Part shown: positions 42,058-51,034 of the stretch, one piece after another
How the letters are laid out: every line of letters begins with the position of its first letter
How positions within the stretch are numbered: position 1 is the stretch's first letter
From: an uncultured Deferribacteres bacterium
GTDB taxonomy: Bacteria; Zhuqueibacterota; JdFR-76; DREG01
Assembly (NCBI GenBank): GCA_913009825.1
Contig: CAJVYQ010000029.1
Location: forward strand, 1 to 62,740
Length of the DNA stretch: 62,740 nt
Direction: 5' to 3'
Notes under the pieces: model-generated
What the model saw: only the letters and a program-made list of their open reading frames with translations
Told to the model about the DNA's origin: nothing
The model's database searches: none
Made by a program: the position numbers and the translations under genes

Positions 42058-43545
42058 TTACAACCTGTCTTCCAGTCTTTCCACAAAGGTTCTCAACGCT
42101 TTGATTCTGGCATACCATTTGGAATTGGATTCCACAATGGTCCACGGCGCATGGGAGGTGCTGGTTCTGAACAGCATTTCATCCACGGCGGATTTGTACA
42201 AATCCCATTTCTCCCGGTTACGCCAATCTTCTTCGGTGATTTTCCATTGTTTGTAGGGCGTTTCCTGCCGCGCTTTGAACCGCCGCAACTGTTCGTCTTT
42301 ATCGATCTGCACCCAAAATTTGATCAGCACCGTGCCGAAATTGGCCAGATGTTCTTCCATTTCATTAATTTCCCGGTACGCCCTCTTCCATTCTTCTTCC
42401 GTGCAGAAACCTTCCACCCTTTCTACTAACACACGCCCGTACCAGGAACGGTCGAAAATGGCGATGTGACCGGCTTTGGGAATTTTGGTCCAGAAACGCC
42501 ACAGGTAATGATGCGCCAATTCGATATCATTGGGCGCCGCAATGGGGATCACTTCGTACCCTCTCGGATCCATGCCGCGTACCAGTCGTTTGATGTTGCC
42601 TCCTTTTCCCGCTGCATCCCAGCCTTCATACACCATAATGATGGGGAGCCGCCTGATATAAACTTCATGCTCCAGTTCCCGGATTCGCTGCTGATATTTT
42701 TTCAGCGCCGCCGAATACTCCTCCCGTGTAAGTGAAACAGAAAGGTCTACTTTATCCAAAACCGACGAAGATATATTTTTCACATCGATGGAAGATTTAA
42801 CAAAAGCGGCATGGTTTTCTTCAGCGTGCTGCAGCTCAAACTTTTTTCTCTCCACGGCGTCGATGATCGTTTTAAAAATTTTCACGGAGGCAAAATGCCT
42901 GTCGTGTGCTTCCACGATAGTCCAGGGAGCGTATTCCGTGTCGGTTTTGGCCAGCATATCTTCAACAGCATCAAAATATTCCCGGTACTGTTTATGATGC
43001 TTCCAGTCATCTTTGGTCACTTTCCACGCTGTAGAAGAATTATTCTGCAATTTTTTGAACCGTTTTTTCTGCTCGTTTTTATCAATATGCAGAAAAAATT
43101 TAATAATCACCGCGCCTTCATCCACCAACTGCCGTTCGAACGATTTTATCTCATCGTAAGCAACCATCCAGTCTTTTTTCTTTACAATTTTATCCACTCT
43201 CTCCACCAGTACCCGGCCGTACCAACTGCGGTCAAATATGGTTATGCGGCCTTTTTCCGGCGTGTTGCTCCAAAACCGCCACAAAAACGGCCGCAGCCGT
43301 TCTTCTTCGTTGGGAGGATTCGTCGGATAAACGGTGAACCCCCTTGGGTCTATGGAGAGAATCAACCGGTTGATCATGGTTCCTTTACCGGCCGCGTCCC
43401 AGCCTTCAAAAACGACGATCACCGGGATTTTCAGATCCTTCGCTTCCCGCTGCAATTCGGCTAATTTCAATTCAAGACCGGTGATGATTGTTTTGTACTC
43501 GGGTTTGGCAATCTTTTTTGTCAAATCAATTTTTTCCAACATGGT
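42058..43545 (-). CDS. pap: Two-domain PPK2, polyphosphate:AMP phosphotransferase type
   Basis: A 495-residue protein made of two PPK2 domains. Each has Walker A (FEGWDAAGKGT at about 45-55 and YEGWDAAGKGG at about 300), the DRSWYGRVLVERV block and the lid region. Two-domain PPK2 proteins such as Pap use polyphosphate to phosphorylate AMP to ADP. AAGGAG upstream fixes the ATG at 43545; the open frame before it is the end of the Nudix gene. It overlaps the Nudix gene by 20 bp and is followed within 4 bp by the HD hydrolase, so the three are one operon. It is an energy-salvage enzyme that consumes stored polyphosphate. Confidence 0.92.
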   Translation of the reverse strand, partial: TMLEKIDLTKKIAKPEYKTIITGLELKLAELQREAKDLKIPVIVVFEGWDAAGKGTMINRLILSIDPRGFTVYPTNPPNEEERLRPFLWRFWSNTPEKGRITIFDRSWYGRVLVERVDKIVKKKDWMVAYDEIKSFERQLVDEGAVIIKFFLHIDKNEQKKRFKKLQNNSSTAWKVTKDDWKHHKQYREYFDAVEDMLAKTDTEYAPWTIVEAHDRHFASVKIFKTIIDAVERKKFELQHAEENHAAFVKSSIDVKNISSSVLDKVDLSVSLTREEYSAALKKYQQRIRELEHEVYIRRLPIIMVYEGWDAAGKGGNIKRLVRGMDPRGYEVIPIAAPNDIELAHHYLWRFWTKIPKAGHIAIFDRSWYGRVLVERVEGFCTEEEWKRAYREINEMEEHLANFGTVLIKFWVQIDKDEQLRRFKARQETPYKQWKITEEDWRNREKWDLYKSAVDEMLFRTSTSHAPWTIVESNSKWYARIKALRTFVERLEDRL

Positions 43546-44044
43546 AAGCTCCTTCTTTTTCGATCCGTTCCCGGTCGCAGCATCGAACAGAATTGCGATG
43601 CAACTTCCCATTGGCGTAAATCAGAGGGGCGGCGCGGTGGATTATTTCTTCTATCTGAGGCAAATCGAGAAAAAATTTCGCTTCCTCCACACCAACCCAA
43701 ATTCTGTCCCGGATATCCGATTCGGGCCAATTCTGCAGCACTTTCTCGATTCTCATCGGAAACACCTGAACCGTGCAGACACCGCCCCATTTTTTGTATC
43801 GGTAACTGCCGGCACATTCTTCATAAACAGCGCCGGTGATACCCGCTTCTTCGCCCGCTTCTTTGGCCGCGGATGCTGCCGGGGACATGTCTGTTTCGAT
43901 TATTCCTTTGGGAAAAATCCATTTCCGTCGTTTCCGGTTGGTAATCAGAAGAATTTTAATTTTGCCGTTCCGCCGTAAAAAAGGGATAACCGCCGATTGA
44001 TCGTAATAATAACCGGGACGACTTTTTTTTCTGTTTTTTTTCAT
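43526..44044 (-). CDS. Nudix hydrolase (diphosphoinositol/polyphosphate type)
   Basis: A 172-residue Nudix protein. The box reads GIIETDMSPAASAAKEAGEEAGI at about 46-68, with the catalytic EExGI intact. The context (RKWIFPKG before and RYKKWGG after) resembles the DIPP/NUDT3-like group that acts on diphosphoinositols, dinucleoside polyphosphates or polyphosphate. The open frame starts at 44122; the ATG at 44044 with CGGA upstream gives the family N-terminus. First gene of an operon with PPK2 and the HD hydrolase, which favours a role in polyphosphate or dinucleotide turnover. Confidence 0.82.
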   Translation of the reverse strand: MKKNRKKSRPGYYYDQSAVIPFLRRNGKIKILLITNRKRRKWIFPKGIIETDMSPAASAAKEAGEEAGITGAVYEECAGSYRYKKWGGVCTVQVFPMRIEKVLQNWPESDIRDRIWVGVEEAKFFLDLPQIEEIIHRAAPLIYANGKLHRNSVRCCDRERIEKEGAYHVGKN

Positions 44045-44306
44045 GGTTCCGTTACCAAACTTTTCCTTTCTCCGGCCGTAGAACAGCCTCGCACAGGTCT
44101 TTTTTGATGGAAAAGCAAGCATAAAAATCTAGTAACATTTGTAACACCTTCGATCAGTGAAATATTCTGCCAAACCCCCATTTTAGGTACATGAGCAAGT
44201 ACCTGACCTCCATTATGTAAAGGAGAGGAAATCCCATCCCTTAGCAAATAGCTTACTTTTCCCTCATTTATTGCTGTACACAGGCATTACTTTTTACAAT
44301 CTATTT

Positions 44307-44534: not shown

Positions 44535-44806
44535 TAACATTTTAGTTCTTTGAAAAAATAGATTGTCTGCTATCAACATATATCTACACAAACATGTCAT
44601 TCCCTGCCCGAGCAGGCGGGCGAATGGAGTTCCGATGGTTTTTATCGGAACGAAGTGAGAAATCTCTACTCACAAATATACAAAGAGGCATGAGATTCCT
44701 CATCCCCCAAAGCGGGGATTCGCCCGCCTGCTCGGGCAGGGAATGACATCACTCGGACTTATTTATCTGATAAAAAGACACAACTTTTCAAAGGACTAAA
44801 GTGTTA
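44535..44806. mobile_element. MITE-like element, family 4, with 9-bp target duplication
   Basis: About 272 bp bounded by TAACATTTTAGTTCTTTGAA and TTCAAAGGACTAAAGTGTTA. TCAGAATTT occurs at 44525-44533 and again at 44807-44815, a 9-bp duplication. The right duplication overlaps the parA stop codon, so the element landed exactly at the gene's 3' end. A 31-bp perfect inverted repeat (TGTCATTCCCTGCCCGAGCA at 44595 and its complement ending 44748) is nested inside. Confidence 0.8.
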
Positions 44807-44813
44807 TCAGAAT

Positions 44814-45551
44814 TTACAGATTCTTTATCTCCCGCCATAATTGCCGGTAGGAATCTGCTGCAGCGGATTTTGGTTTTGAGCAGGCCGCCGGTTCACGATG
44901 AACTCCCATTTTTTCAATATCGGTTGAATAAGGAATTTTTGTTAAAAATACCCGGGGATTGTTTTCTTTGAACCGCGCTATACTTTCCCGGTGCAGTTTT
45001 TTTCTTTTTTCCACCATTGAGAAAAAAACATAAATTTTCTTCCGGTTTATTTTAGATGTTTTGATGAATTCGATCAGTTTTTCAAAGGCAAGGAGGGACA
45101 GGGTTGTCGGGATCAACGGGACGCAGATTAAATCCGCAGCGCGAAAAACATTTTCCGAAGCCAGTGTAATATTGGGCGGGCAATCCAGAAAAAGATATTC
45201 GTACTCCCGGTCAAAAGGGGAAAGAATTTTACCAAACTTTTTCCGGGGCTTTTTCATCTCGTGCAGGGCGATATCCAGATTACGAAAGGAAAAATCGGCC
45301 GGCAACAGGTCCAAATGAGCATAATCCGTTCCTTTAATGTATCCGGCCAACTTTTCCCCGCCGCGCAGGAATTTAACCGAATTATACTTTTTGGCCGGGC
45401 GGATTCGGAAATAAAATGAGGTCGATCCCTGCGGATCCAGATCGCACAGCAGCGTTTGGAACCCTTCCTGCGCCGCAAAATAGGCAAGATTTACGGCGGC
45501 GGCTGTTTTTCCCACACCGCCTTTGATGCTGTACAGAGCGATTGTTTTCAA
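44814..45551 (-). CDS. Orphan ParA/MinD-family ATPase
   Basis: A 245-residue ParA-type ATPase. The deviant Walker A is KGGVGKT at 10-16, switch I is around LDPQGSTS, and Walker B is YLFLDCPPN. It has no N-terminal DNA-binding domain. No parB, repA or plasmid genes are nearby. Such orphan ParAs often position cargo (carboxysomes, flagella, chemosensory arrays) on the nucleoid. Here it lies between two polyphosphate operons on the same strand: Nudix-PPK2-HD downstream and CHAD-PPK1-SixA-glucokinase upstream. Positioning polyphosphate granules is a hypothesis from this context only. It is monocistronic and repeats flank it on both sides. Confidence 0.87.
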   Translation of the reverse strand: MKTIALYSIKGGVGKTAAAVNLAYFAAQEGFQTLLCDLDPQGSTSFYFRIRPAKKYNSVKFLRGGEKLAGYIKGTDYAHLDLLPADFSFRNLDIALHEMKKPRKKFGKILSPFDREYEYLFLDCPPNITLASENVFRAADLICVPLIPTTLSLLAFEKLIEFIKTSKINRKKIYVFFSMVEKRKKLHRESIARFKENNPRVFLTKIPYSTDIEKMGVHREPAACSKPKSAAADSYRQLWREIKNL

Positions 45552-45614
45552 ATTCCGTTCCCTCCATTCCCTGATATTTTATCTCTGCAACGAAACTTTT
45601 CAAGCTGGGATAAT

Positions 45615-45910
45615 GCAGCACTTTAGTCCTTTGAAAAAGGATAATTAGTTTCCGACCGAAAATTCCCTGTTTCTGTCATTCATAGTTCTCGGTCAAACAC
45701 CGATTACTCAGGTAGCCTGCGAAAGATACGAAAAATCATGGAAAAAAAATCAGATAAGCCCTTTTGGAGTATTTCGTGTGTTTCGCAGGCCAAATAGTCA
45801 CCCAATTTCTCTGCGTCCTCTGCGCCTCTGCGTTAAGAAACAGGCGCTCTAAAACACAGAGGCGCGGAGAGCGCAAAGGATGCAGATTTCAGTAAAAATT
45901 AAAATGTTAC
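45615..45910. repeat. Family-4-like repeat block upstream of parA
   Basis: It begins with CACTTTAGTCCTTTGAAAA and ends near AAAATTAAAATGTTAC, echoing the ends of the element at 44535. It also carries the CTCTGCGTTAAGAAACAGGC hairpin seen at the left edge of the window, and TTACTCAGGTAGCCTGCGAA as at 130-145. No gene is seen between 45552 and 46054. Confidence 0.6.
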
Positions 45911-46054: not shown

Positions 46055-47587
46055 TCAACCAAACAACTTTTTAAACAAAGCCCGGTTTTCTTCGTTATGA
46101 AAGGCATTGAAGATAGCGCTGAAATTCTGCCGAACCTGCTTCTGTCTGTTATCGAGCACAGCCATCAGGCCGCCAATGGCGGCGCAGCTATATTTCGCGT
46201 CTTTGTCCCGACGATCCTCCTGCTGCAAATATTCCTTCAAATATTGCTGCTGCAGGGACAAATCATTCAGCTCACCTAAATTATCCTGTAATTTTTTAAA
46301 ATGTTTGATCAATCCGGCCATATCTTCTGCGGGGAACAGCGAAGTGAAAAATTCCAGCAGATAGCGCAATTTTTTGCACTGAATACGCAAGCGGTGCAGT
46401 TCTCCGTCCGGAGTGGCGGGATGGATGGAAACGCCGTCGCGAACCACTTTTTTGTACTGTTTGTAAATGATTTCCCTCGCCAATTCGTAAACAGGTTTGC
46501 GGGAATTCTCCGCCTCTTCCGTTTCTTCCTGTTTCAGACTGTGCAGAAAATCTTCCCAGGCGGAAACAATTTGGCCGTAAGCCGGAGAATGGAGCTGCTG
46601 CACAAAATTATCATGCTCAGCCTTTCTCTGAGTACGCATGGATTGGAACAAAGGTTTCAGACCGGGACGCAAATCTGCCGGCAGCATGGTCAAATACTGT
46701 TTTTCTTTGAGCAGATAAACATCCAGATCGCGGAGCCGGTTGGTCCACTTTCCCAGCGCAGAAAACTCTTTTTTGAACCGGCCGGTTACCGTTTTCGGTA
46801 AAACTCCCCGGATTTGTGTGATTGCCGAACGGGTTCTGCGCACCGCAACGCGGAAATCATGAAGGAATTCGGTGTCAATATCGGCAATGATCCCCTCTTC
46901 ATTGCACCGCATAACAGACAGCAGATGAGATAATATTTTTGGCAGCGCAATGGAAGCAGGTTCATCCGGCTGCAATTCAATTTTCAACTTTGATGAATAA
47001 TCGCCGGGATGCTTGCCGGCGGATTCGATAATGATTTCATATACCGGTTTGCTCAACAACCGGCACCCGTTTTGATTTAAAACCCGGCAAAATTCAGTAA
47101 ATTCTGCACCGTAGCCACGGATCGGATTAACCAGAATCAGGTTTAGTTTTTTCGGCTCCTGCCGGGATCGAAGCAGATCAATTTCGGCTAAACAGGCACG
47201 CAACACGGTTTTTTCATCACGGTTCAAAATGGCAAAGGTTTGAACCGTTGCGGAAATTTCCGTTAGTTCAATAAGTGCGCGCAGACCTGCCGGTTGCCGG
47301 ATTTTTTTTCGCAGCGATCCCGGCGGAAAATCATGCCAAAATCCAGCATGCTCGTGGTTTCGCCACTCGGTTGCGGCCAACTCTTCTCCGGTATCTGAAG
47401 AAATCAAAACATAACGCTCCTCTTCTTTTATCAGAAAATATCCGGCATGATAAATACGCCAATCGAATGTATCATAAAATTTTTGATTCTTTTGGCGGGC
47501 AGTCTCTATCCGCACCAAAAAATTATTTTGGCCGGCGTGAGTGAGATCGGCGGGATGAACCTTGTCGGGTAAAATAAATGATTTCAT
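46055..47587 (-). CDS. CHAD-domain polyphosphate-binding protein
   Basis: A 510-residue protein. Residues about 20-200 resemble a degenerate CYTH-like domain (FYDTFDWRIYHAGYFL, a pattern like YFDTPDRRL of CYTH enzymes), without an obvious full set of triphosphate-binding Lys/Arg. Residues about 215-500 are a CHAD domain, a helical bundle rich in conserved His/Arg/Lys (FLHDFRVAVRRTRSAI; LHRLRIQCKKLRYLLEFF). CHAD domains bind polyphosphate and localise to granules. Its ATG overlaps the PPK1 stop by four bases (ATGA), so it is translationally coupled to polyphosphate kinase. It probably acts as a granule-associated or regulatory protein. Confidence 0.87.
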   Translation of the reverse strand: MKSFILPDKVHPADLTHAGQNNFLVRIETARQKNQKFYDTFDWRIYHAGYFLIKEEERYVLISSDTGEELAATEWRNHEHAGFWHDFPPGSLRKKIRQPAGLRALIELTEISATVQTFAILNRDEKTVLRACLAEIDLLRSRQEPKKLNLILVNPIRGYGAEFTEFCRVLNQNGCRLLSKPVYEIIIESAGKHPGDYSSKLKIELQPDEPASIALPKILSHLLSVMRCNEEGIIADIDTEFLHDFRVAVRRTRSAITQIRGVLPKTVTGRFKKEFSALGKWTNRLRDLDVYLLKEKQYLTMLPADLRPGLKPLFQSMRTQRKAEHDNFVQQLHSPAYGQIVSAWEDFLHSLKQEETEEAENSRKPVYELAREIIYKQYKKVVRDGVSIHPATPDGELHRLRIQCKKLRYLLEFFTSLFPAEDMAGLIKHFKKLQDNLGELNDLSLQQQYLKEYLQQEDRRDKDAKYSCAAIGGLMAVLDNRQKQVRQNFSAIFNAFHNEENRALFKKLFG

Positions 47588-49650
47588 ACTTTTTCAAGCT
47601 CAGATTTTAGCCATTCGTAAATATCATCTTGAGCACGAACCGGTTTGTCCGCCGTTGATTTTTTGACTCGATTGCTTTGCTTCTCATCGATGATGCGTGC
47701 TTTTACACGGTCTTTAAACTGAATATCCATGAAAGTTTTTAACTCTTTTTGAATCCTCTTGTCATAAATAGGAACGGCAACTTCAACCCGGTTGTCCAGA
47801 TTGCGGATCATCCAGTCGGCTGAAGAGAGGTAGTATTTTTCTTCACCGCCGTTACAAAAGATGAAAATGCGGGAATGTTCCAGATACTTGTCCACAATGC
47901 TGATCGCGGCAATATTTTCACTGAATCTTTTCACACCGGGCACCAAAGAACAGATACTGCGGATGATCATTTTGATCTTCACACCGGATTGACCGGCTTC
48001 GTATAATTTATCGATGACCGTTCTGTCGACCAGGCTGTTCAGTTTGATATAAATGTAAGCCTCTTTGCCTGCCTGCGCATTCTTAATTTCATTTTTGATC
48101 ATACGAACGATATTTTTACGCATGTAAAACGGCGCCACCATAAGATGTTTGTATGAAAATGTTTTATAATTATGTTCTAAAAAATCAAAAACCTTGTTCA
48201 CTTCGTTGGTGATTCTTTTATCGGCGGTAAGTAAAGTATGGTCGCTGTAAATTTTAGCGGTGGTCTCATTGAAATTTCCCGTGCCCACAGTTGCATAGCG
48301 TACTTTTTTGTCGTCCTCTCTGCGCGTAACCAGGCACAATTTGGCATGGACTTTCAATCCGGGCACACCTTCGATTACTTTGGCGCCCTCTTCTTCCAGC
48401 CGTTTGATCCAGTAAATATTTGCCTCCTCATCGAAGCGGGCCTGAAGTTCCATTAAAACCGTGACCGACTTGCCATTTCTTATGGCATTGATCAGAGCAT
48501 TCACTACATTTGAATATTTTGCCACGCGATAAAGCGTCATCTTGATGGAAGTAACATTGTGATCGATTGCGGCTTCCCTGAGCAGATCAAGGATGTAATC
48601 AAAAGATTGATAGGGATAATGAAGCAGAATATCCTTTTTTCGCATGGCGTTGAGCAGACTTCGCTGCCTGAGAATATCCCGGTGCAGCAATGGCTCTCTC
48701 GTTTCATAAATTAGAGAAGGTCCGCTAACATGGGGAAAACTCATAAAATCCCTGGCATTATGGTAAAGACCGCCCGGAATAAGATTGTCAAAATTTTCCA
48801 GATGAATCCGCTTCAAAATAAAATTCAGCAGTTCATCGGGAATCTCACGATCATAAACAAACCGCACTGCCCGCCCCTTCGCCCTGCGTTTGATAGATTC
48901 GGAAATCTTCTCATAAAAACTTTTGGTGATATCATCTTCAATATCAAATTCGGCATTCCTGGTTAATTTTATCGTGTAGGCTGCGCAGCTGTCAAAATCC
49001 AGGATAGAAAAGATTTCCTTTAAACCAAAGCGGATAACATCATCCAGCATGATAATGTAATCTTTATCATCTTTTCCCGGCAAAGGGAGAAAGCGCGATA
49101 ACACATCGGCAGGAACTTCTATGAGTGCATATTTCACTTCTTCTGGTTCCCGTTCTCTTTTCAAATATATCGCCAGATAGATAACCTGATTTTTCAGATA
49201 AGGAAAATCGGGCAGAGAATCGATCATGATCGGTACAAGACGGGGATGGACTTCATGTAAAAAATAGTGATGAACAAACTGCTGCTGCTCTTCAGTCAGT
49301 TGCTTTTCATTAACAAAAAATATGTTTTTCTTTTCCAGTTCATGTAAAATTCCATCGAACAGATCATCAAACTTTTTCCGCAGAGGAATAACTGTCTTTT
49401 GTATCTCATTGATAATTTTTTTGGGCTTGCCGCCTATTTGTGACTTTAATTTGACACCGGCTTCAAGCATACGCTGCAGAGAACCAACCCGGACACGAAA
49501 AAACTCATCCAGATTGGATGAAAAGATGCCGATAAATTTGATTCTTTCGATGAGCGGTACATCCGGGTCGGCCGCCTCTTGTAATACGCGGGCATTAAAA
49601 GAGAGCCAGCTAATCTCCCGGTTCACATAATAATCGTTCTCTTTCGCCAT
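47584..49650 (-). CDS. ppk: Polyphosphate kinase 1
   Basis: A 688-residue PPK1, the enzyme that makes polyphosphate from ATP reversibly. The N-terminal YYVNREISWLSFNARVL is diagnostic. The two active-site histidines fall at exactly the E. coli numbers: His435 (GLKVHAKLCLV, the phosphorylated residue) and His592 (LEHSRIFIF). The length matches the E. coli enzyme. It is followed by the CHAD gene with a 4-bp overlap and preceded by SixA and polyphosphate glucokinase, all on the minus strand. This is the synthetic core of the cluster. Confidence 0.97.
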   Translation of the reverse strand: MAKENDYYVNREISWLSFNARVLQEAADPDVPLIERIKFIGIFSSNLDEFFRVRVGSLQRMLEAGVKLKSQIGGKPKKIINEIQKTVIPLRKKFDDLFDGILHELEKKNIFFVNEKQLTEEQQQFVHHYFLHEVHPRLVPIMIDSLPDFPYLKNQVIYLAIYLKREREPEEVKYALIEVPADVLSRFLPLPGKDDKDYIIMLDDVIRFGLKEIFSILDFDSCAAYTIKLTRNAEFDIEDDITKSFYEKISESIKRRAKGRAVRFVYDREIPDELLNFILKRIHLENFDNLIPGGLYHNARDFMSFPHVSGPSLIYETREPLLHRDILRQRSLLNAMRKKDILLHYPYQSFDYILDLLREAAIDHNVTSIKMTLYRVAKYSNVVNALINAIRNGKSVTVLMELQARFDEEANIYWIKRLEEEGAKVIEGVPGLKVHAKLCLVTRREDDKKVRYATVGTGNFNETTAKIYSDHTLLTADKRITNEVNKVFDFLEHNYKTFSYKHLMVAPFYMRKNIVRMIKNEIKNAQAGKEAYIYIKLNSLVDRTVIDKLYEAGQSGVKIKMIIRSICSLVPGVKRFSENIAAISIVDKYLEHSRIFIFCNGGEEKYYLSSADWMIRNLDNRVEVAVPIYDKRIQKELKTFMDIQFKDRVKARIIDEKQSNRVKKSTADKPVRAQDDIYEWLKSELEKV

Positions 49651-49747: not shown

Positions 49748-50248
49748 TTAAACGGTACGATGCTTTCCGGGGTAATCGAAAAACAGCACGGTGCCGTTTT
49801 CAGCGGCGACCTCTTTCCAGGAACCGGTGTTAAATTCCACACAGAGGATGCCGCAGGTGGGCATGTTGGGTATTATTTTATTTGAAAAATAATTCGCCAG
49901 ACCGGTTATTTCCGGGTTGTGGCCAAACAGCATCGCTTCATTTACGGCCTCATCCGTATTTCGGATGAAGGATAACAGATCAAAACTATTTCCGTTGTAG
50001 ATAATATTGGCCGTTTTTATTTTTTTTACCGGATAGTTTATTTTTTTGGCGATGATTTTGGCAGTCTTCAGCGCCCGTTTTGCCGGACTCGAGACAATTA
50101 TATCCGGCACAACGTGGTATTTTTTTAATCGCTCGCCCATAAACGGAGCATCCCTTTTGCCCCGCTTGTTCAACGGCCGGTCTGAATCATGTAAACCGGG
50201 ATCATCCCAGCTTGACTTTGCATGACGAACCAGATAGAGTCTTTTCAT
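49748..50248 (-). CDS. sixA: SixA-like histidine phosphatase
   Basis: A 166-residue member of the histidine phosphatase superfamily with LVRHAKSSWDD (catalytic His9), NKRGKRDAPFMGERL, VSSPAKRALKTA and FGHNPEIT. It belongs to the SixA type, which removes phosphate from phosphohistidine proteins. Because PPK1 works through a phosphohistidine (His435), an SixA-type enzyme next to ppk could act on PPK1 itself; this is inference. It is 48 bp downstream of the glucokinase gene and about 100 bp before ppk. Confidence 0.87.
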   Translation of the reverse strand: MKRLYLVRHAKSSWDDPGLHDSDRPLNKRGKRDAPFMGERLKKYHVVPDIIVSSPAKRALKTAKIIAKKINYPVKKIKTANIIYNGNSFDLLSFIRNTDEAVNEAMLFGHNPEITGLANYFSNKIIPNMPTCGILCVEFNTGSWKEVAAENGTVLFFDYPGKHRTV

Positions 50249-50296: not shown

Positions 50297-51034
50297 TTAC
50301 TGTGCATTTTCTGCCGACAATGCTGCACCGATGATGCCGGCGTGGTTGAGCAGCCGGGCGGGTACCACTTTGGCGCCAACGGTAAAATAGCGCATAAACT
50401 TTTCACTTTTTTTGCTCGCGCCGCCGCCCAGGATAATCAAATCGGGCCAGAGAAGTTCTTCCAGACGCAGCAGATATTTATTAAAACGTTTTGCCCATTT
50501 TTTCCACGACAAATTTTCTTCTTCACGCGCTGCATCGGAAGCGTAGTGTTCTGCAATCATTCCTTTCAAAATGATATGGCCGAATTCGGTATTAGGAAGC
50601 AGTTCACCTTTGGTAAACATGGCGGTGCCCAAACCGGTGCCGATGGTGATCAGTATCACAACTCCCTTTTGTCCCTTGCCGGCGCCAAATTTCATTTCCG
50701 CCAAACCCGCTGCATCCGCATCATTAACCACGGTGGTGGCACAACCGGTTGTTTTCGTGAAAAGCCGGATCGCATCGGTGCCGATCCAACTCTCATCGAT
50801 GTTGGAAGCGTTGCGCACAATTCCACCCGGAATCAGCGCGGGAAAACCGCAGCCGACCGGCCCCTGCCAATTAAAATGTTGCGCAACTTTTGCCACTGTT
50901 TTTGCCACTACCTCAGGAGTGGCCGGCTGCGGCGTTGGGATGCGGTACCTTTCCGCCAAAAACTTACCATTCTCCGTATTAATTAGCGCTCCTTTAATAC
51001 CGGAGCCGCCGATATCAATTCCTAAAATTTCCAT
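50297..51034 (-). CDS. ppgK: Polyphosphate glucokinase (ROK family)
   Basis: A 245-residue ROK-fold kinase. The N-terminal [14 protein letters not shown] phosphate loop, catalytic [21 protein letters not shown] and the polyphosphate-glucokinase-specific [16 protein letters not shown] and [17 protein letters not shown] are all present. It phosphorylates glucose using polyphosphate (often ATP too). It leads the SixA-PPK1-CHAD series and gives a direct route from stored polyphosphate to glucose-6-phosphate. Length and motifs match the actinobacterial enzyme class. Confidence 0.93.

Follow-up and report, generated by a model that had tools for sequence, protein, structure and literature searches.

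A ParA subfamily encoded with polyphosphate-binding CHAD proteins is a candidate polyphosphate granule-positioning system

The window, a 62,740-nt contig from an uncultured bacterium of candidate division KSB1, raises the question of what a ParA-type ATPase does within a polyphosphate (polyP) gene cluster. The cluster comprises eight genes, all on one strand, in the order polyP-glucose phosphotransferase, SixA-like phosphatase, PPK1, CHAD, ParA, Nudix, double-domain PPK2, and RelA/SpoT-like HD protein (Table 1). The initial annotation described a ParA/MinD ATPase flanked by PPK2 on one side and CHAD-PPK1 on the other, and proposed that it positions polyP granules. Both the gene and its same-strand neighbours were found as described: the ParA/MinD-type reading frame is complete on the minus strand, and the plus-strand frame over the same interval contains seven stops. 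The product matched the Pfam profiles AAA_31 (6.8e-34) and CbiA (1e-17), which alone do not tell this protein from an ordinary partition ParA, and none of the NCBIfam equivalog models was reached at its cut-off.

Table 1. Features of the ParA locus (window positions; a dot marks an unstranded feature).
Feature	Position	Strand	Remarks
Double-domain PPK2, polyP:AMP phosphotransferase	42058..43611	-	TIGR03708 above cut-off
Nudix hydrolase	43526..44122	-	Pfam; also after the CHAD-ParA pair in relatives and in Paracoccus
Dispersed inverted-repeat (MITE-like) element	44538..44803	.	directly behind ParA stop
ParA-family ATPase, founding query of the CHAD-associated subfamily	44814..45551	-	245 aa, TTG start
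Clade signature EKMGxxR (213-219)	44895..44915	-	in place of canonical SEAPSFG, beside DNA-binding face
Clade signature IPTTLS (147-152)	45096..45113	-	in place of QCEYYA of canonical ParA
Loop IKGTD (residues 72-76), HpSoj L34 equivalent	45324..45338	-	D76 invariant, aligned to HpSoj Q79
Loop FYFRIR (residues 46-51), HpSoj L23 equivalent	45399..45416	-	Y47 invariant, R49 98%; alignment and PMC11229316
Deviant Walker A KGGVGKT (K10-T16), signature lysine K10	45504..45524	-	conserved in clade and outgroup
GGAGG, ribosome-binding-like	45561..45565	-	9 nt 5' of ParA TTG; read from sequence
Second copy of dispersed element, in CHAD-ParA gap	45619..45910	.	far end degenerate, coordinates approximate
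Partner: TTM-like plus CHAD protein	46055..47587	-	510 aa; PF05235 8.5e-60; CtCHAD homologue 3e0s/6qv7, E 6e-66
CHAD domain with polyP-contact residues H243, R246, R250, R286, K376, K379, K380, K431	46058..46996	-	
N-terminal degenerate TTM/CYTH-fold domain, residues 1-197	46997..47587	-	model pLDDT 86.9; EXEXK absent
PPK1 polyphosphate kinase	47584..49650	-	4-nt overlap with CHAD
SixA-like histidine phosphatase	49748..50248	-	score below TIGR00249 cut-off
Polyphosphate--glucose phosphotransferase (ROK)	50297..51034	-	NF045942, 330.6 bits, cut-off 250

Sequence comparison showed that the window ParA is a member of a sharply separated subfamily rather than a generic ParA. Subfamily members were mostly 48–62% identical to it, as against at most 33% for canonical ParAs. 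Within KSB1, 16 of 82 genomes carried a clade copy (50–60% identity), and all other ParAs there remained at or below 33%. In the ParA tree, a branch with 100% support split 92 clade members from 15 canonical ParAs. The residues Y7, Y47, R49, R90, the IPTTLS segment, F176, F177, K184, H187, E213, M215, G216, R219, and W239 were conserved in at least 93% of the clade and nearly absent from canonical ParAs.

The predicted ParA structure (pLDDT 91.5) carries the features of the ParA/MinD superfamily in both its nucleotide motifs and its fold. K10, K15, D37/D39 (Walker A' Asp), and D123 (Walker B Asp) were at least 90% conserved in the clade and in the outgroup alike. The closest solved structures, by profile and by fold, were the Soj/ParA proteins of ParABS systems (HpSoj 6iub/8jmj, TthSoj 1wcv, ParA 8ray; TM 0.85–0.90). 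The clade ParA keeps all of their nucleotide motifs, but it shares only 23–28% identity with them, has IPTTLS where they have QCEYYA and IPYxSDIEKMGxxRxP where they have IPRNVRLSEAPSFGKP, and is accompanied by neither ParB nor parS. A MinD-like membrane switch was rejected, as the model showed no C-terminal targeting amphipathic helix beyond the last ParA helix; the MinD model TIGR01968 gave 37.6 bits against a cut-off of 212.9.

The gene neighbourhood was followed in one scan of GTDB genome contigs, from which the best 80 ParA-clade loci were taken. These loci carried about a dozen phylum labels, some of which may be wrong for MAGs: KSB1, Desulfobacterota, Chlorobiota, Bacteroidota, Ignavibacteriota, Gemmatimonadota, Latescibacterota, Lentisphaerota, Calditrichota, Poribacteria, and Pseudomonadota, with a few MAGs labelled Chloroflexi or archaeal. 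The carriers include the cultured genera Methylomonas, Chlorobium, Desulfobacter, Sedimenticola, Tritonibacter, and Paracoccus. A long-CHAD gene lay directly upstream of ParA on the same strand in 66 of the best 80 loci; among 57 measured pairs the median distance was −1 nt, and 22 had an exact 4-nt stop/start overlap. The 14 exceptions fell mostly into one Methylococcaceae branch, and 12 of the 14 genomes keep one CHAD elsewhere that belongs to the same CHAD branch. A second cargo for this branch was considered and rejected: its neighbours vary (glgP, mgtE, lysS/prfB/dtd), and since these genomes retain a CHAD at another site, relocation explains the arrangement more simply.

The same pairing emerged when whole genomes were compared. 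CHAD adjoined all 15 testable clade ParAs of KSB1 (the sixteenth copy is cut by a contig end), and no CHAD match occurred on the contig of any of the roughly 105 other ParAs listed for this phylum. The class of Methylomonas was sampled evenly, and 34 of its 229 sampled genomes had a ParA match at E ≤ 1e-40, which adjoined CHAD in 25; CHAD was present in 30 of these 34 genomes versus 42 of the 195 without ParA. The enrichment of CHAD with ParA (Fisher, p = 7e-7 in KSB1 and 9e-14 in Gammaproteobacteria) exceeded that of PPK1 (p = 0.002 and 8e-5), values that overstate certainty because clade members are not independent. PPK1 was found within 6 kb of ParA in only 17 of the best 80 loci and anywhere in 11 of the 16 ParA-positive KSB1 genomes; counting PPK1, PPK2, Ppx, SixA, or CYTH within 6 kb raised the figure to 30 of the best 80. 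The core pairing is therefore ParA-CHAD, not ParA-PPK. The association of the clade with polyP genes, anticipated by the initial annotation, is thus strongly supported, and a lack of such association in other genomes, which would have spoken against that proposal, was not what we observed.

The two genes are also inherited together. The ParA and CHAD trees had their main groupings in common, and copies from the Roseobacter group and Desulfobacter clustered in both with starred support; here the pair crossed phyla as a unit. The spread over phyla and this joint transfer argue against inertia as the cause of the linkage. CHADs from genomes without ParA fell mostly outside the linked CHAD branch; one that lay well inside it (G039) was located at a contig end.

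The partner comes from a family with a known polyP binder, CtCHAD. A crystal structure shows CtCHAD in complex with a polyP 9-mer, and long polyP leads it to form larger oligomers (PMC6537752). The CtCHAD fragment shares 78% identity with a CHAD from Chlorobiaceae (L026) encoded directly upstream of a clade ParA, and the window partner belongs to the same CHAD subfamily as CtCHAD (PDB 3e0s, 6qv7, 6qva) and the phosins. At the ten polyP-contact positions of CtCHAD, taken from PMC6537752, the window partner is basic or identical in nine, and H243, R246, R250, and R286 were invariant (100%) in 64 ParA-linked CHADs. The N-terminal domain matched TTM proteins in Foldseek, including ygiF (5a60). The EXEXK catalytic motif was found in only 3 of the 64 ParA-linked N-termini, and its loss from the other 61 makes a catalytic role unlikely; CYTH triphosphatase activity of the partner was accordingly rejected despite the fold matches. 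A basic N-terminal peptide of the ParB/McdB kind was not found in the 64 partners, whose first 25 residues had a mean net charge of −0.4.

The surfaces through which ParA would meet its ligands are unusual in two respects. In HpSoj, loops L23 and L34 clamp the ParB peptide, Q79 contacts ParB Arg9, and both loops vary across ParAs (PMC11229316). The equivalent loops of the clade follow the consensus [FY]YFR[IV]x and [KR]-x-[TS]-D, a strong conservation that fits a single shared partner. They are themselves basic (R49, K73), whereas the partner lacks the basic N-terminal peptide. The other departure concerns nonspecific DNA (nsDNA) binding: HpSoj K227 corresponds to the variable position 220, and the nsDNA-binding residue R218 of Bsu Soj corresponds to D/E211. 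Next to position 220, R219 is 99% conserved in the clade. Nucleoid binding by the clade ParA is thus not guaranteed. The protein is also very basic, with a net charge of +17 in the window ParA and +9 on average in the clade versus −1.7 for canonical ParAs; together with the loss of the nsDNA positions, this implies either a remodelled DNA face or polyP as the ligand.

We consider granule positioning a plausible reading and assign a probability slightly below 60% to the proposal that ParA is the ATPase of a two-protein system for positioning or partitioning polyP granules. ParA would dimerise on ATP and bind a scaffold within the cell, in all likelihood the nucleoid, while the TTM-like/CHAD protein, co-translated with ParA, would coat the granule through polyP binding by its CHAD domain. 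Acting as cargo adaptor, the CHAD protein would meet ParA and stimulate its ATPase, and a ParA gradient would space the granules and apportion them to the daughter cells, in the way that McdA/McdB handle carboxysomes. The intact ParA motifs and the predicted Soj/ParA/McdA-like fold support this reading, and orphan ParAs commonly adjoin their cargo genes (PMC10241942). The missing basic peptide on the partner, the changed nsDNA positions, a repeat-bearing gap of 503 nt between the two genes in the window genome, and the non-universal PPK1 count against it. We know of no report of granule positioning in KSB1. Positioning on the nucleoid nevertheless appears to be the likeliest function of the clade, and the CHAD pairing conserved across phyla makes its ParA the strongest current candidate for a granule-spacing and granule-sharing machine. 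The wider proposal, which we regard as evenly balanced, is that of a widespread, unnamed ATP-driven polyP-granule positioning system in which the ParA subfamily and a TTM-like/CHAD adaptor would combine a changed polyanion face with a partner contact unlike the arginine/lysine peptide of ParB/McdB.

The polyP genes within 6 kb in 30 of the best 80 loci would suit a regulatory or assembly ATPase, BcsQ- or MinD-like, that recruits or activates PPK and Ppx at the granule through CHAD and alters granule nucleation or turnover, with no movement of granules. Weak similarity to BcsQ exists (TIGR03371 2e-15, below its cut-off), and BcsQ/BcsR occurred among the fold matches. The fold and sequence are nonetheless nearest to Soj/ParA and McdA rather than BcsQ (TM 0.85–0.90 vs 0.79), and the constant partner is a non-enzymatic CHAD protein, not an enzyme. 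We consider a regulatory role rather unlikely. More doubtful still is a role in which polyP, not DNA, is the polyanion bound by ParA, and ParA and CHAD form an ATP-switched coat or cross-link controlling granule size, fusion, or condensation. The raised net charge, the clade-specific basic residues R49, K73, R90, K184, K214, and R219, and the lost canonical DNA-binding positions would agree with such a coat, but the same residues might just as well belong to an altered surface for DNA binding, and polyP is not known as a ligand of any ParA.

That the window gene is an ordinary ParA for chromosome or plasmid partition, or a decayed plasmid remnant, residing in the cluster by chance is very improbable, and for the clade in general this explanation is already refuted. 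The ParA fold, the database annotation as ParA/AAA ATPase, and the undiscriminating Pfam matches are what one would expect of such a protein. The ParABS equivalog NF041546, however, gave 89 bits against a cut-off of 180, and no ParB gene was found near the clade ParA. The canonical ParB of the window genome lies on another contig (C75), directly behind a different ParA, and a search for a distant parB in that genome yielded none paired with the clade ParA. The conserved CHAD neighbour across phyla is likewise at odds with ordinary partition, and only 12 of 72,556 plasmids had a homologue at E ≤ 1e-20, the Paracoccus copies among them adjoining CHAD. The earlier interpretation is partly supported: the association with polyP genes and the lack of ParB pairing hold, PPK is less strongly associated than CHAD, and granule positioning with CHAD as adaptor is an inference. 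A second ParB_N protein of the window genome (G000:C70:19130-19342) lies near none of its listed ParAs. A phage origin of ParA was also rejected, the best phage matches being only about 28% identical.

Among known systems, McdA/McdB is the nearest in design, as a ParA-fold ATPase without ParB that is encoded with a cargo-associated protein. The clade fold matched McdA at TM 0.84–0.87. Conserved pairing with a cargo-binding partner, a mark of McdAB-type positioning, was found (CHAD at 66/80 and 15/15), but the basic N-terminal activating segment was absent from CHAD. The systems differ further in that the partner here is a polyP-binding CHAD protein, not McdB, and that granule positioning is here a proposed function. 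The Walker A of McdA reads SGGQGKT (PMC9178275), where the clade has KGGVGKT. AlgP of polyP granules and the PHB proteins PhaM/PhaF/PhaH also organise granules relative to the nucleoid (PMC13052382, PMC9239181), but they are histone-like DNA-binding tethers without ATPase and are unrelated to ParA-CHAD.

The absence of an established positioning ATPase for polyP granules, assumed in the initial annotation, agrees with a 2025 review in which AlgP is the sole organiser identified for polyP granules, no ATPase is listed, and the need for energy or ATP is called unknown (PMC13052382). Our literature search, outside which lay preprints and most subscription papers, found none either. PolyP does not feature in a survey of ParA/MinD proteins in Halothiobacillus (PMC10241942). 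A 2024 copper-resistance paper reported conserved folD-ppk-parA-CHAD synteny in Acidithiobacillus with no functional proposal (PMC10892726); by name this is the same pairing in one genus, with the ParA called a plasmid-partition protein, and the likeness is by description only. Earlier studies of CHAD/CtCHAD regard CHAD as a module for polyP binding and do not appear to deal with a linked ParA. In several bacteria, polyP granules show regular spacing or an ordered mode of inheritance, and the ParA-CHAD link makes the energy question directly testable. It also suggests a possible role for CHAD proteins beyond polyP binding and a likely cargo, polyP granules, for a large set of orphan ParAs whose present annotation goes no further than AAA or plasmid-partition ATPase.

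In the window genome, ParA is separated from CHAD by 503 nt and from the Nudix gene by 691 nt. A dispersed element has copies in both gaps, so the ParA-CHAD pair is not tightly coupled there. The element ends in a 19-nt inverted repeat, TTTTCAAAGGACTAAAGTG, with 110 genome copies (at most two mismatches) versus two for a reversed control pattern, often in inverted pairs 90–500 bp apart; one element copy contains a perfect 32-nt inverted repeat (44594-44625/44718-44749). A mobile ParA cassette bracketed by the 19-nt repeats was rejected, since the repeats are the ends of this genome-wide element.

Several other loci showed variant arrangements. On the Paracoccus marcusii plasmid pCP157_03 (L156), the genes pstA-pstB-phoU-phoB are followed about 1.5 kb downstream by CHAD-ParA-CYTH-Nudix-CYTH, a proximity that suggests Pho-regulon control of these CHAD-ParA genes. 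In Methylobacter-type genomes (L050, L085, L093, L098), the clade ParA lies 33–53 nt upstream of glycogen phosphorylase, with CHAD elsewhere in the genome; this neighbour may reflect a second cargo or chance relocation. A Bacteroidota-labelled MAG (L040:9992-11674) encodes ParA fused to a C-terminal HAD-type domain, sucrose-phosphatase-like by eye, with only a 75-aa CHAD remnant upstream. A 42%-identical relative on the Marinobacter nauticus conjugative plasmid pMAQU02 (NC_008739; L157) lies near phbB (polyhydroxybutyrate) with no CHAD in view, and another 42%-identical ParA (L191, G261:C2) is directly behind PPK1 with no adjoining CHAD. In Chlorobiaceae loci, including L033:7635-8417, a repeat protein (c10) with repeated FDCSxNxL units is encoded between PPK1 and CHAD.
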